Under the pieces are notes generated by a model. That model ran no database searches, had not been told where the DNA came from, and saw only the letters and a list, made by a program, of their open reading frames with translations. This document shows positions 1,074-15,940 of a stretch of 37,387 nucleotides of DNA, piece by piece; within the stretch, counting starts at the first letter, position 1, and every line of letters begins with the position of its first letter. The translations under genes and the position numbers were made by a program. This DNA is from Spirochaetaceae bacterium (GTDB taxonomy: Bacteria; Spirochaetota; Spirochaetia; DSM-27196; PWMO01). Location: positions 1-37,387 of the forward strand of contig REDW01000058.1 in NCBI GenBank assembly GCA_007693325.1, written 5' to 3'.

Positions 1074-1910
1074 GTGTACGATTTTCGCAACAAGACCGCA
1101 ATCGTCACCGGTGCATCCAGCGGCATCGGTCGTGCTACCGCCGCGCTGCTGGCAGCGCGTGGCGCACGAGTAATTGCCGCAGCGCGTAACGCCGTCGAGC
1201 TCGAGAGCGCGGCAGAGCACGCGCGTGCCGCCGGCGGTATAGTGATAGCACAGCCCACGGATGTAACAGATCCGCAGCAGTGCAGCACCCTGGTGCAGTA
1301 CGCCGTAGACCGCTTTGGCGGTGTGGACATTCTGATCAATAACGCCGGCATCTCTATGCGGGCGCTGGTGCTCGATAGCGAGATGGCAGTACTGCGCCGT
1401 GTCATGGAGGTCAATTTCTGGGGAACGGTCAACTGCACCAAGGCAGCTCTTCCGTTGCTGCTGGCGTCAAGCGGCGGAGTACTGGTCGGCATCTCATCGG
1501 TCGCCGGCTTTCACGGTCTGCCGGCGCGCTCGGGCTATTCGGCATCCAAGTTTGCAATGCACGGTTTCCTTGAGAGCATTCGCATCGAACACCTCAACGA
1601 CAGGCTTCACGTACTGCTGGTTGCACCCGGTTTTACGCGCTCGAACATCCGCCGGCACGCGCTGACCGCTGACGGCTTAGAGCAGGCCGAAACACCCAGA
1701 GACGAGGCACGTCTTATGTCTGCCGAGCGCGTAGCCGCGCACGTTCTCAGCGCGATCTACTGGAAGAAACGCAATCGGCTCATCTCATTCGAAACACAGC
1801 TTGTGGCTCTGATGCAGCGCATTCTACCACATTGGGTAGACCGCGCCATCTACAACAGCATGCTGCGCGAACCCGGCTCGCCACTGCAGCTCAGAAGCAA
1901 GCCGGACTAG
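1074..1910 (+). CDS. Short-chain dehydrogenase/reductase (SDR)
   Basis: 278-residue classical SDR. The cofactor motif TGASSGIG spans residues 12-19, NNAG 89-92, a catalytic Ser lies in the GISSVAG stretch near 141, and YSASK puts Tyr155 and Lys159 in the active site. The C-terminal extension (after residue about 230) is hydrophobic and aromatic, as in DHRS7/DltE-like SDRs that sit at membranes. The start is a GTG with a purine-rich AAGGCGG stretch upstream. It follows the molybdenum hydroxylase genes closely, so co-transcription is likely, but the substrate is unknown. A role in the same catabolic pathway is inference only. Confidence 0.85.
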   Translation: MYDFRNKTAIVTGASSGIGRATAALLAARGARVIAAARNAVELESAAEHARAAGGIVIAQPTDVTDPQQCSTLVQYAVDRFGGVDILINNAGISMRALVLDSEMAVLRRVMEVNFWGTVNCTKAALPLLLASSGGVLVGISSVAGFHGLPARSGYSASKFAMHGFLESIRIEHLNDRLHVLLVAPGFTRSNIRRHALTADGLEQAETPRDEARLMSAERVAAHVLSAIYWKKRNRLISFETQLVALMQRILPHWVDRAIYNSMLREPGSPLQLRSKPD

Positions 1911-10283: not shown

Positions 10284-10718
10284 GTGCGCAAGCAAAAGGG
10301 CGACAAAGCAGTCGAAGAACTGGTGTCCGGACTCTCCATGACCGCGGTGTTCGGCGGGGTGTACCTGGTGACCGGAAGCAACATCTGGCTGCTGGTTGGC
10401 GTGTTTGCCGGCATAATTCCTGCAATTGGCGGGGCAGGAAAACTTCTGGCGCGACGCTACAACGCCGAGCTGCCACGGCCCCAGGACGAGCGAGCGCGTG
10501 TGGAACGGCAAATCCTGCGCAGCGCCCAGCAGCACCACGGGCGCGTGACACCAACCCGAATTGCGGTTGATGCCAACTGCTCGATAGACCAGGCGCAGCA
10601 GATCCTCGATGACCTCACTACCAAGGGTTTCTGCACGCTTGAGATCACCGAAAACGGCCGCATCGAGTATCAGTTCAGCGATCTGCTACCGGAGAACCGC
10701 AGTCCCGAAGCTACATGA
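10284..10718 (+). CDS. Two-membrane-segment protein with C-terminal winged-helix domain
   Basis: 144 residues of unknown function. Residues about 18-55 form two hydrophobic helices separated by a short turn (VYLVTGSNIWLLVGVFAG and following). After a basic linker, residues 75-135 look like a winged helix (RILRSAQQHHGRVTPTRIA, then a DLTTKGF recognition-type helix and a strand EYQF). This is the shape of a membrane-tethered DNA-binding or protein-binding module. The GTG start follows a promoter by 9 bases with no clear ribosome binding site. It overlaps the convergent diadenylate cyclase gene by 8 bp. I do not recognise a named family. Confidence 0.7.
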   Translation: MRKQKGDKAVEELVSGLSMTAVFGGVYLVTGSNIWLLVGVFAGIIPAIGGAGKLLARRYNAELPRPQDERARVERQILRSAQQHHGRVTPTRIAVDANCSIDQAQQILDDLTTKGFCTLEITENGRIEYQFSDLLPENRSPEAT

Positions 10719-12036
10719 AGATGATCCGCCGTCCGTTGTGGAAGATGCTGATCTTGCGCGTGGATTCCGAAACCGCTATCGAGATGGCGTCGGTTACCGA
10801 AGTAATGCCCAACGCGGCCGCGTGCCGTGCGCCCAGGCCGGATTGATGCTCATCGGCTTCCGGTTGCCCGATCAGAAAGGTGCCGCCGGACTCCAGCACG
10901 CCATCACCGCGCACGATGAAGGCTCCGTCGATCCTGGCGTACTCCTTGATGGTCTCTTCCAGCGACGGATCGAGGATGCTGCGTTCGATCTCGTCGTACC
11001 CGTAAAACGGATTCATGATGAGCTGACGTGTGTAGCCGCGGACGTTCTCAAAATCGCCGAGCACAAACAGTGTCCCTACCGCGGTTCCTTCACGCCCTTC
11101 GGCTGCGAGCTCACCGGCAATCTGCAGCGCTCGTGTCAGCACGTGTTCGGTGACATCGGTTGAGACCCGTCCCGACTGCAGTTCCATTGGAAAGTCAAAC
11201 TCGTTGCCGATGTGTGTCAATCGGATTGAATCCAGATGTCCGGATTCCGGAACGCCGAATACATTGACAATGGTATCGTCGCGTTGAATTCTTCCCAGCG
11301 ACAACAGAAACAGTAGTGCAAACTGCACGTTGGTGGAGCGGCGGATACCCTTGAACGGGATTGTGATGATCTCGAGCCGCTGCCGCAAATCTGCAGAAAA
11401 CCTGGATTCCGTATTGGTCAGTACAATTGTATCACTGTCACCTACCAGCTCGACGATGAACTCGGGGTCATCGATTGCATCGGCGTGCAGCACAATCTTG
11501 GCGCTCGGCAATTCCTCGGCAATCGACCGTGCACGCCCAAACGCCAGGCGCGAGATATCTGTTTCGCGGCCACCGTAGTAGCGGTTGGAGATCCGCGTGT
11601 CATCGGCAAAGCGACTCAGCACCTGTTCGGCATTCTCGGCATCTACAATCTGCTGATAGCGCGAACCTTCGCGCAACTGAGCTGCTACCTCACCCAGAAT
11701 ACGCAGGTGATCAATTCTGCCGCCTACAAGCAGGATCACCAGATGCACCGGATCCTCGGAGTCTGCATCCCAGGCAATCCCGTGTCTGGAAATGCCGAGC
11801 GCCAGCACGCTCTCGCCGGCATGGTCTAGTACGGCGTGCGGCAGAGCCACGCCTCCGCCCACGCACGATGAGACCGATGCCTCGCGCTCAAAAACACGCC
11901 TGGTGACCTCGTCGCGGTCAAGAGCCGGCTGATCGTTGCAGACCAGCTCGATAAGCGATGTCAGAGCCGCATCACGATCGGTTTCGGGATCAAGAAATCG
12001 AATACGCGCAGTAGACAGATGGCTATGAAGACTCAA
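10711..12036 (-). CDS. PTS EIIA (type 2)-diadenylate cyclase fusion protein
   Basis: 441 residues. Residues about 15-150 match the fructose/mannitol-type PTS EIIA domain, with the phospho-acceptor His67 in GVALPHAV. Residues about 170-300 form a Rossmann-like middle part that resembles the pyruvate kinase C-terminal-like domain seen in archaeal diadenylate cyclases (moderate confidence). Residues about 350-441 are a DisA_N/DAC domain: DGAFIVRGDG (Asp370-Gly371-Ala372) and GARHAAALGI, then SVTDAISIAVS. The family synthesises c-di-AMP from two ATP. The canonical RHR is RHA here (404-406). The start is TTG at 12036 with GAGGAG 7 bases upstream; the frame opens earlier but has no such site. Confidence 0.8.
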   Translation of the reverse strand: MSLHSHLSTARIRFLDPETDRDAALTSLIELVCNDQPALDRDEVTRRVFEREASVSSCVGGGVALPHAVLDHAGESVLALGISRHGIAWDADSEDPVHLVILLVGGRIDHLRILGEVAAQLREGSRYQQIVDAENAEQVLSRFADDTRISNRYYGGRETDISRLAFGRARSIAEELPSAKIVLHADAIDDPEFIVELVGDSDTIVLTNTESRFSADLRQRLEIITIPFKGIRRSTNVQFALLFLLSLGRIQRDDTIVNVFGVPESGHLDSIRLTHIGNEFDFPMELQSGRVSTDVTEHVLTRALQIAGELAAEGREGTAVGTLFVLGDFENVRGYTRQLIMNPFYGYDEIERSILDPSLEETIKEYARIDGAFIVRGDGVLESGGTFLIGQPEADEHQSGLGARHAAALGITSVTDAISIAVSESTRKISIFHNGRRIIFM

Positions 12037-12054
12037 CTGATTGCTCCTCGTGAT

Positions 12055-12083
12055 ATAATGCAGGATTTCTGCCCGCACCGCAA
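12055..12083 (-). promoter_or_regulatory. Promoter of the EIIA-diadenylate cyclase gene
   Basis: On the minus strand TTGCGG (12083-12078), 17-bp spacer, CATTAT (12060-12055). The ribosome binding site GAGGAG follows within the predicted transcript. Confidence 0.5.
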
Positions 12084-12149
12084 CATTTGCTGTCTCAGCG
12101 GCGCACACAACCGCTGGGGCACACCCCTGCCGCAACCCCGCTGCGCGCC

Positions 12150-12189: not shown

Positions 12190-13065
12190 ATGCACCCATG
12201 GCTACAGGACGCAACCGCCTACATAACCGGGGGCTCAAGTGGCATTGGACTGGCTATTGCCCACGAACTGCGCCGCCACGGCGCCTCGCTGGTTCTCATT
12301 GCGCGCAACCGCCAGCGGCTCGACGAGGCGCAGCGGGAGCTGCTGACAACCACAGCGCCGGTATCGCGCAGAGCGCCGGACAGCCGGCAACCGATGGTCG
12401 ACATAGTCGTGGCGGATGTCACCGACTCACGGCAACTGCAACAGACGCTGAGGGAGGCGGTAGCACGAATCAGCCCACCGGATATTCTGGTCAACTGCGC
12501 CGGCATGGCACACCCGGGCTACTTCGAGCAGCTGGACCTCCACGTCCTCCATCAGACGATGCAGGTGAATCTCTACGGGGCATGGAGCGCAACTCAGACT
12601 CTATTGCCGTACCTGCGCCAGCGCGGCGGTCGGATTGTCAATGTTGCGTCGCTGGCCGGCCTTATCGGCAGCTTCGGATACAGCGCCTACGCTGCCTCCA
12701 AGTTTGCGCTGGTCGGCTTCTCTGAGGCTCTGCGCAACGAGCTCAAACCCGACGGTGTTTCTGTGTCGCTACTCTGTCCAAGCGACACCGATACGCCGCA
12801 ACTGCACCAGGAGAACCGGATCAAGCCACACGAAACGGCCGCGCTGTCGGGTAACGGCCCCACGCTGCAAGCCGGGCAGGTAGCCCGGGACTTTCTGCGG
12901 GGGTTGCGGCGGCGTCGCTTTCTCATCATAGCAGGACGGTCGGCACGCATGGTATACTTGATCAAACGTCTGGCACCGTCAATTCTGTACAGACTCATGG
13001 ACGGCGTTGTGGCAAAGAGTCGTCGCCGCGCGCAGACACACACAGCACTCATAGGGGAGCAATGA
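12190..13065 (+). CDS. 3-ketodihydrosphingosine reductase (eukaryote-like KDSR/TSC10-type SDR)
   Basis: 291-residue SDR. TGGSSGIG is at 13-20, VNCAGMA in the fourth strand, and Tyr167/Lys171 in YAASK. After the active site it reads PSDTDTP (197-203) and ENRIKPHET (about 208-216). As I recall them, human KDSR has PPDTDTP and ENRTKPLET at the same place, which is not shared by ordinary SDRs. The C-terminal 60 residues are basic and hydrophobic, consistent with membrane association as in TSC10/KDSR. The enzyme reduces 3-ketosphinganine to sphinganine with NADPH. The start ATG follows the promoter at 11 bases; the open frame extends upstream to 12019 through the promoter. The serine palmitoyltransferase gene follows without a gap. 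Confidence 0.8.
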   Translation: MHPWLQDATAYITGGSSGIGLAIAHELRRHGASLVLIARNRQRLDEAQRELLTTTAPVSRRAPDSRQPMVDIVVADVTDSRQLQQTLREAVARISPPDILVNCAGMAHPGYFEQLDLHVLHQTMQVNLYGAWSATQTLLPYLRQRGGRIVNVASLAGLIGSFGYSAYAASKFALVGFSEALRNELKPDGVSVSLLCPSDTDTPQLHQENRIKPHETAALSGNGPTLQAGQVARDFLRGLRRRRFLIIAGRSARMVYLIKRLAPSILYRLMDGVVAKSRRRAQTHTALIGEQ

Positions 13066-14292
13066 ATGAACACCATCACCACCACTACGACACGCGGCGA
13101 TCTGTTTCAGAAATGTCACGAATTCACCGAGGCCACAGAGGCTCGTAGTCAGGGGCTCTATCCCTATTTCCGGCCCATCGAAGGCTTCTGCGGGGCCCGA
13201 ATTATTTCCGAAGGTCGCGAACTGATCATGGCCGGCTCAAACAACTATCTGGGGCTCTCGCTTGATCCACGCGTCCGCGAAGCTGCCATAGATGCCATCA
13301 AAGTCTACGGCGCCAGCTGCTCGGGTTCGCGCTTCATGAACGGCACGCTCAAGCTGCACGAAGAGCTTGAACAGCGCCTGGCCGCGTTTGTCGGCAAACC
13401 GGCCGCTCTGTGCTTCACAACCGGCTATCAGACCAACCTCGGCGCCATATCGGCGCTGGTCGGCCGTGGTGAGCACATCATAACCGACAAGCTCAACCAC
13501 GCTTCGATCATGGACGGAATATTCATGGCGCTGGGCATGACGCGCCAAATCCAGGTTCACCGCTACAAGCACAATAACATCGAGCAGCTCGAGCAGATTC
13601 TGGAGTCCCTGCCGGCCGACGAGCCCAAGCTGCTGGTAACCGACGGGGTGTTCAGCATGGAAGGCGACATCGCCAAGCTGCCGCAGATACGTGAGCTGGC
13701 AGACCGCTACGGAGTGCGGGTATACCTCGACGAGGCGCACGCTATTGGAGTGACCGGCGCAACCGGCCGCGGAACCGTCGAGCACCACGGCGGTGCAGCG
13801 ATGGCCGACCTGGTCATGTGCACCTTCTCCAAATCGTTTGGATCAATCGGCGGCTTTGTTGCCGGAGATGAGGCCGTGGTGGACTTCATCAAGCACTTTG
13901 CGCGGCCACTGATCTTTAGTGCCAGCATGCCGCCGTCAAACCTGGCTGCGGTAATGAAATCGCTTGAGATTATCGAAAACGAGCCGGAGCGCGTCAGCCG
14001 GCTGCAGCAGATAGCCGCCAGGATGCGCCGCGGCTTCACAGAGCTGGGATTTGATATCGGGACTTCCGAGACTGCGGTCATTCCACTGATAATCGGTGAC
14101 AATCAGAAGACCTTTCTGTTCTGGAAGTACCTCTACGAGAACGGCGTCTACGTCAACCCGGTAGTCAGCCCGGCGGTTCCTCCAAATCGAGCCCTGATCC
14201 GTACCTCGTACATGGCTATTCACGAGGATTCAGATCTCGATCGGGTACTGGAGGTCTCGGCTGCAGGCGGCAAGGCGGCCGGCATTCTCTAA
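13066..14292 (+). CDS. spt: Serine palmitoyltransferase (alpha-oxoamine synthase family)
   Basis: 408 residues. PLP-dependent enzyme joining L-serine and an acyl-CoA (or acyl-ACP) to give 3-ketosphinganine, the first step of sphingolipid synthesis. The motif LYPYFRPIEG near residue 30, SNNYLGL, SRFMNGTLKLHEELE, DEAHAIG (Asp222, His225) and the PLP lysine 256 in TFSKSFGS follow the wording of bacterial SPT (Bacteroides, Sphingobacterium) much more closely than AONS or KBL. PVVSPAVPP near the C-terminus is also SPT-like. The ATG directly follows the reductase stop (TGAATG), with GGGGAG 6 bases before. A threonine run follows the start. It ends 4 bp from the convergent oxidoreductase gene. Confidence 0.85.
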   Translation: MNTITTTTTRGDLFQKCHEFTEATEARSQGLYPYFRPIEGFCGARIISEGRELIMAGSNNYLGLSLDPRVREAAIDAIKVYGASCSGSRFMNGTLKLHEELEQRLAAFVGKPAALCFTTGYQTNLGAISALVGRGEHIITDKLNHASIMDGIFMALGMTRQIQVHRYKHNNIEQLEQILESLPADEPKLLVTDGVFSMEGDIAKLPQIRELADRYGVRVYLDEAHAIGVTGATGRGTVEHHGGAAMADLVMCTFSKSFGSIGGFVAGDEAVVDFIKHFARPLIFSASMPPSNLAAVMKSLEIIENEPERVSRLQQIAARMRRGFTELGFDIGTSETAVIPLIIGDNQKTFLFWKYLYENGVYVNPVVSPAVPPNRALIRTSYMAIHEDSDLDRVLEVSAAGGKAAGIL

Positions 14293-15325: not shown

Positions 15326-15940
15326 TCAGCGGTCGAGGTTACGCAGCGCCCAGCACACCCGCTGGATGATACCAACGGCCAGAGCGCCACTCATGACGCT
15401 AAGCAGCACCAGCGCGTGTTGTGGCATCAGCAGCACCAGAGCATAGATTGCGATGGTTTCACCGCCTTCAACCATTCCGCTCGGCATGCTGATCGAAGTC
15501 AGAATTGTGCGGTCGCGCAGCGCCAGAGCGCGCTTCTCGATCAGCGCCGACAGATAGAGCCATGAGGTTATGTTGATGTAGAACAGCGCCAACAGCAGCA
15601 GCACAACCAGCGACAGCCGGTGGTCGGATCGCTCTATTACCAGCGCAACCGGAATTGCGCTGTAGACTACCACGTCCAGCAGCAGGTCCAGGTAACCGCC
15701 CAGGTCGCTCTGACGCCCGGTCAACCGCGCCACACTGCCGTCCAGCCCGTCGATGACGCGATTAAGCAGCCACAACCCCAGCGCTAACGGGTACACGCCA
15801 ATTGCGGTGGCCGCGGCTGCAGCCAGCCCCACTATGGCCGCGGCCACGGTTATGGTTGTTGGCTGCAGCCTGCTGCCTATCAGGCGGGCTATCGGCATCG
15901 TCAAGCGCTCCTTGAGGAAACGCAAACGGTTATCGAGCAT
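15326..15940 (-). CDS. CDP-alcohol phosphatidyltransferase family membrane enzyme
   Basis: 204 residues, about six membrane segments. The family motif DGX2AR-X8-G-X3-D-X3-D is complete: DGSVAR, then Gly after 8 residues and the two Asp at spacing 4, near residues 65-90. These enzymes transfer a phospho-alcohol from a CDP-activated donor to an alcohol or diacylglycerol. The exact product (phosphatidylglycerol-phosphate, -inositol, -serine or a sphingolipid head group) cannot be read. It lies one gene away from serine palmitoyltransferase, so a head-group role in sphingolipids is possible. It shares the strand of the preceding oxidoreductase with a 48-bp gap. Confidence 0.8.
   Translation of the reverse strand: MLDNRLRFLKERLTMPIARLIGSRLQPTTITVAAAIVGLAAAAATAIGVYPLALGLWLLNRVIDGLDGSVARLTGRQSDLGGYLDLLLDVVVYSAIPVALVIERSDHRLSLVVLLLLALFYINITSWLYLSALIEKRALALRDRTILTSISMPSGMVEGGETIAIYALVLLMPQHALVLLSVMSGALAVGIIQRVCWALRNLDR

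Follow-up and report, generated by a model that had tools for sequence, protein, structure and literature searches.

A predicted eukaryote-type 3-ketodihydrosphingosine reductase encoded directly upstream of serine palmitoyltransferase in a spirochaete

The window analysed here is a stretch of 37,387 nucleotides, one contig of the 3.47 Mb genome, in 150 contigs, of an uncultured spirochaete. At 12190-14292 it carries an SDR gene (product P0001) and a predicted serine palmitoyltransferase (SPT) gene (product P0002), and both reading frames are open throughout with no internal stops (Table 1). The first-pass annotation had described the two genes as joined by TGAATG, and the stop codon of the first is indeed followed directly by the start codon of the second. 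Its word "fused" does not fit, as these are two separate genes that abut. A scan for promoters and terminators around the pair gave nothing usefully above chance. Co-expression is supported by the conservation of the abutting or overlapping gene order in relatives, and we infer a single transcript for the two genes. The abutting stop and start codons suggest that translation of SPT would be coupled to that of the reductase.

Table 1 Features of the SDR-SPT gene pair in the window
Feature	Position	Strand	Basis or remark
Predicted KDSR/TSC10-type SDR gene (291 aa, P0001)	12190..13065	+	Placement in the eukaryote-type KDSR clade
NADP(H)-binding motif TGGSSGIG (residues 13-20)	12226..12249	+	All positions invariant or nearly so in 18 orthologues
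Catalytic YxxxK (Y167-K171; with S154)	12688..12702	+	S154, Y167 and K171 invariant in 18 orthologues
KDSR signature PSDTDTPQLHQENRIKPHET (residues 197-216)	12778..12837	+	C-terminal profile and motif count
Shine-Dalgarno-like AGGGGAG for the SPT gene	13053..13059	+	Inside the end of the SDR gene, 6 nt before the SPT ATG
TGA-ATG junction, 0 nt gap	13063..13068	+	TGA 13063-13065, ATG 13066-13068; mostly overlapping or near-zero gaps in relatives
Predicted serine palmitoyltransferase gene (408 aa, P0002)	13066..14292	+	Family match scores
PLP lysine codon (K256, TFSKSF)	13831..13833	+	Alignment

Conservation of the remaining neighbours is limited to the genus; they encode a minus-strand PIG3-like oxidoreductase, an EIIA-DAC protein and a CDP-alcohol phosphatidyltransferase. 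The EIIA-DAC gene (10711-12135, minus strand) adjoins the operon and runs against it. In its product a PTS EIIA_2 domain is joined to a DacZ_P/DAC diadenylate cyclase domain, and the protein may be a c-di-AMP cyclase that takes its input through the PTS domain. The CDP-alcohol phosphatidyltransferase (15326-15940, minus strand) lies near the SPT gene and could add a head group, although nothing ties it to sphingolipids.

The downstream protein, P0002, has its best PDB matches in Sphingobacterium SPT, at 398 bits. Sphingomonas-type SPT scored 264 bits and one entry named AONS/KBL 261, whereas entries named KBL only reached at most 240, BioF at most 220 and cysteate acyltransferase 218. The best family was NF047600, an NCBIfam equivalog model for SPT whose name, SerpalmtaseCFB, points to Bacteroidota SPTs; P0002 matched it with 488.5 bits, below the cut-off of 640, and models other than SPT gave at most 368. 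The closest solved relative is the SPT of Sphingobacterium multivorum (PDB 3a2b and 8guh), which has in common with P0002 the PLP site and an N-terminal GLYxYFRPI, the GLYPYFRPIEG of P0002 aligning with GLYAYFRPI. Other genes fill the KBL and BioF roles: elsewhere in the genome there is a distinct KBL, which scores 624 bits against a cut-off of 460, and also a BioF-like paralogue. A KBL or BioF identity of P0002 was ruled out by these separate genes together with the PDB scores and the family models. By its sequence, P0002 is predicted to be an SPT, its similarity to SPT exceeding that to KBL, BioF, ALAS or cysteate acyltransferase. The earlier reading of this gene from its SPT wording and a PLP Lys256, and as SPT and not AONS/KBL, is thus supported at the level of sequence.

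The pair might instead make another sphingoid-like base, either the sulfonolipid base capnine, built on cysteate, or a 1-deoxy base built on alanine or glycine. The amino-acid substrate can vary among alpha-oxoamine synthases, sulfono and 1-deoxy bases prevail in the Black Sea's upper euxinic zone (PMC11334938), and the 3-ketocapnine reductases are KDSR-like (PMC11211663). Given the SPT-CFB model as the best family and the gap between 398 bits to SPT and 218 to the cysteate fatty acyltransferase, we regard a product other than the serine-derived base as unlikely.

The upstream protein, P0001, is a classical adh_short SDR with TGGSSGIG and the Ser-Tyr-Lys catalytic residues. For comparison we used a provisional human KDSR sequence, whose own best PDB match is TSC10. 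Against it, PSDTDTP (residues 197-203) and ENRIKPHET (208-216) of P0001 align with PPDTDTP and ENRTKPLET, a correspondence to human KDSR that the first-pass annotation had pointed out. Of 81 KDSR-like bacterial rows, 57 carry this motif, as does the provisional human KDSR, and none of 33 other SDRs has it; TSC10 retains only its ENRTKP part. With the provisional human sequence as query, P0001 reached 154 bits and its relatives 127-187; fungal TSC10 reached 104, the other SDR of the window 74 and E. coli FabG 56. P0001 is 34.5% identical to the human sequence over 281 aligned residues, as opposed to 26.0% to FabG.

Full-length searches are less selective. With P0001 as a single query against the PDB, many SDRs scored level with or above TSC10, and with the full profile of 18 spirochaete orthologues TSC10 ranked sixth. 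A C-terminal profile (96 columns, from about residue 190) had TSC10 (8jat) as its sole match, with an E-value of 2.6e-6 and the next at 0.56 among all 177,635 PDB sequences. In PDB searches, the discrimination of KDSR lies in the C-terminal third; full-length queries rank other SDRs equally or higher. The predicted fold of P0001 (pLDDT 93) is that of a classical SDR and matches many SDRs about equally. Among the structure matches listed, HSD17B13 and 11beta-HSD1 were best, with Z-scores of 31-33, and TSC10 does not appear among them, which carries no weight on KDSR membership.

A maximum-likelihood tree of 85 proteins separated human KDSR, TSC10 and every KDSR-like bacterial protein from all other SDRs (FabG, the best Bacteroidota SDRs and further SDRs of this genome) with support of 100/97 and in 200 of 200 bootstrap trees. 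The bacterial rows of this tree were gathered by searching with a KDSR-like sequence, its outgroup is a sample, and its eukaryotes are two, the provisional human sequence and TSC10 on a long branch. A larger quick tree agrees on this grouping. FabG groups with another SDR of the same genome (locus L192), outside the KDSR clade. Within the clade, the tree gives human KDSR and TSC10 no settled position. A second SDR of the window (1074-1910, plus strand; 283 bits to PRK06181, cut-off 215) falls with Bacteroidota SDRs, also outside the clade.

A generic or FabG-like reductase that adjoins SPT by chance would agree with the single-sequence PDB ranking, with the best NCBIfam model of P0001 being a generic SDR (200 bits, cut-off 215), and with the failure of structure comparison to single out KDSR. 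The tree, the C-terminal profile, the motif and the conserved operon oppose this reading and largely refute it, and we consider it very improbable indeed. FabG or a generic SDR as the identity of P0001 was ruled out by the tree and the C-terminal profile. P0001 is, on phylogenetic grounds, a KDSR/TSC10-type SDR, apart from FabG and from the other SDRs of its genome, as the first-pass annotation had proposed. It is alike to the eukaryotic KDSRs (human KDSR/FVT1, yeast and fungal TSC10) in its SDR clade, its Ser-Tyr-Lys residues, the PPDTDTP...ENxTKPxET region and the reaction expected after SPT. It differs from them in being bacterial, in the identity to the human enzyme given above, in being encoded directly upstream of SPT and in having no N-terminal transmembrane segment; helices at 250-289 lie in the C-terminal part of the predicted structure. 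Human KDSR is anchored in the membrane by an N-terminal segment and a hydrophobic C-terminal part, which are not known to be needed for the KDSR assignment.

To define how far the pair is conserved, we compared 81 spirochaete genomes, with presence of KDSR set at E < 1e-60. A KDSR of the P0001 type was found in 22 of them, all 22 of which also have SPT, and about 15 have SPT without it (Fisher p 2.5e-10, from hand-made counts uncorrected for kinship). In 18 of the 22 genomes, KDSR immediately precedes SPT in the same orientation. One further genome (G073, locus L109) has a copy cut by a contig end, and in three (G048, G074 and G058) the two genes lie on separate contigs. At least 10 spirochaete families have retained the pair, in many cases with a stop codon that overlaps the start codon after it; the gap is mostly -8 to +13 nt, some negative values depending on the chosen start codon. 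Outside the spirochaetes it occurs at seven loci, which belong to Chloroflexota (L076, L096, L098, L103, L116 and L127) and a deltaproteobacterium (L145). Across the 26 loci that carry both, divergence in KDSR is correlated with divergence in SPT (Mantel r 0.705, none of 2000 permutations as high). No other neighbour family was clearly conserved around the pair beyond the genus in the neighbourhood comparison. Cultured carriers presumably include Spirochaeta thermophila and Sediminispirochaeta smaragdinae. One genome (G001) has the pair twice (L161 and L162), and three loci (L072, L086 and L087) have two adjacent KDSR-like genes each.

KDSR-like genes are also found apart from SPT. Among 45 searched genomes, nearly all with an unlinked copy of such a gene, 18 had no SPT match at E <= 1e-60; an SPT-grade match (at least 47% identity) was present in only about 13, and several others matched at no more than the KBL/BioF level. 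Judged from this gene content, the KDSR clade is wider than sphingolipid synthesis. Membership of the clade alone thus leaves the substrate unfixed, since genes of the same clade sit in genomes without a recognisable SPT, whereas in this window the assignment is strong because the SDR is in an operon with SPT.

Several SPT-bearing spirochaetes have other arrangements. In genus g11, genome G015 has SPT without a canonical KDSR, and divergent KDSR-like SDRs at L061:251-1060 (minus strand) and L062:1495-2298 (plus strand), with FPSDVDTP and FPTDVDTP, are a possible replacement. Four loci of family f4, genus g5 (L016, L017, L018 and L019) come from SPT-bearing spirochaetes without KDSR, and by eye SPT lies there between a GNAT/Nudix-like gene and proline-biosynthesis-like genes. 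In G035, which is without a member of the KDSR clade, an SDR joined to a methyltransferase-like part is encoded upstream of SPT (L022:2924-4204, minus strand).

The genome was also searched for enzymes of N-acylation. The eukaryotic ceramide synthase family PF03798 had no match in it, nor in the control genomes, so this negative carries no weight. PF04339, which we take to be a ceramide-synthase marker, was found in genomes both with and without SPT and is uninformative. A GNAT-type protein of about 375-400 aa is encoded directly before KDSR in G067 (L171:7277-8404, plus strand) and before SPT in G068 (L178:8123-9322, plus strand), and its close homologues (E < 1e-75) occur only in SPT-bearing spirochaetes. 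It is a candidate N-acyltransferase in these two lineages; the genome of the window has only distant GNAT paralogues, at 26-28% identity. In G050, an 820-aa protein (L185:6156-8618, minus strand) combines an N-terminal acyltransferase-like part, with a weak FemAB_like match, and an SPT-like domain.

The family of both proteins, the gene order and its conservation in spirochaetes, Chloroflexota and a deltaproteobacterium were computed directly. We then propose a mechanistic model in which the operon is a two-gene sphingoid-base module. Going by its family, SPT would form 3-ketosphinganine by condensing a long-chain acyl thioester and L-serine. The KDSR-type SDR, given its family, its operon partner and the conserved substrate loop, would reduce the 3-keto group with NADPH to yield sphinganine, and this reduction would precede N-acylation as in eukaryotes. 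We consider this model likely.

The same two enzymes could also act in another order, with the KDSR-type SDR reducing 3-ketoceramide after N-acylation and thus taking the place of CerR, though as an SDR of another, unrelated kind. Whether 3-keto reduction or N-acylation comes first in bacteria is debated (PMC11087976; PMC11324152), and acylation followed by reduction has been proposed for Caulobacter (PMC11087976). The GNAT-type possible N-acyltransferase, whose gene immediately precedes KDSR in one relative and SPT in another, would suit that order. However, the free base is the substrate of eukaryotic KDSR, and P0001 shares a conserved substrate region with KDSR/TSC10. The Caulobacter pathway (Spt, bCerS and CerR) likewise combines SPT with 3-keto reduction, but its CerR is NDUFA9-like and periplasmic (PMC11087976), whereas P0001 is a classical SDR without an evident export signal, a difference set by description and in line with the earlier statement that the two reductases are of different types. 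Reduction after acylation therefore seems improbable to us, and we retain reduction of the free base as the preferred model.

The first-pass annotation had called the reductase unexpected. This stands for a KDSR-type enzyme in an operon with SPT; it does not stand for a bacterial KDSR as such, since these have been published. BT_0972 of Bacteroides thetaiotaomicron is described as the first bacterial KDSR shown, is NADPH-dependent and is not clustered with SPT (PMC9278070). Both it and P0001 are bacterial SDRs, but the P0001 gene abuts SPT. In 247 sampled Bacteroidota genomes, 15 match the P0001 type at E <= 1e-50 and one is clearly inside the clade (1e-105); because only this one has a clear member, the Bacteroides enzymes are probably in another branch. 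The 3-ketocapnine reductases of Alistipes have 21-24% similarity to Tsc10p, and their genes lie apart from that of the synthase (PMC11211663). As predicted for P0001, they and CapC are SDRs whose substrate is the 3-keto compound made by an alpha-oxoamine synthase; they differ in serving the sulfonolipid pathway and in being unclustered.

Bacterial KDSR-like sequences are already in domain databases. A eukaryote-type KDSR in a bacterial operon with SPT was not described in the literature searched, outside which many subscription papers and preprints lie. The conserved operon looks new relative to the papers searched, in which bacterial KDSRs are distant in sequence and unclustered. It is tempting to go further and regard a reduce-first KDSR-SPT operon as an old and widespread trait of Spirochaetota, Chloroflexota and some deltaproteobacteria, with eukaryotic KDSR descending from the bacterial clade; we hold this combined proposal to be possible yet rather doubtful.

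In the Black Sea, 38 phyla have SPT-like genes; bCerS or CerR is often missing from the neighbourhood, and replacement by other enzymes has been suggested (PMC11334938). For such lineages, the conserved KDSR-SPT operon is a concrete reductase candidate. It makes the order of reduction and acylation directly testable, including in cultured carriers, and bacterial relatives of human KDSR without the N-terminal membrane segment are now at hand. The KDSR clade also offers material on the origin of the eukaryotic pathway. Together, our results suggest that some bacteria may make sphinganine in the human order of steps, with a second enzyme of the human protein family.
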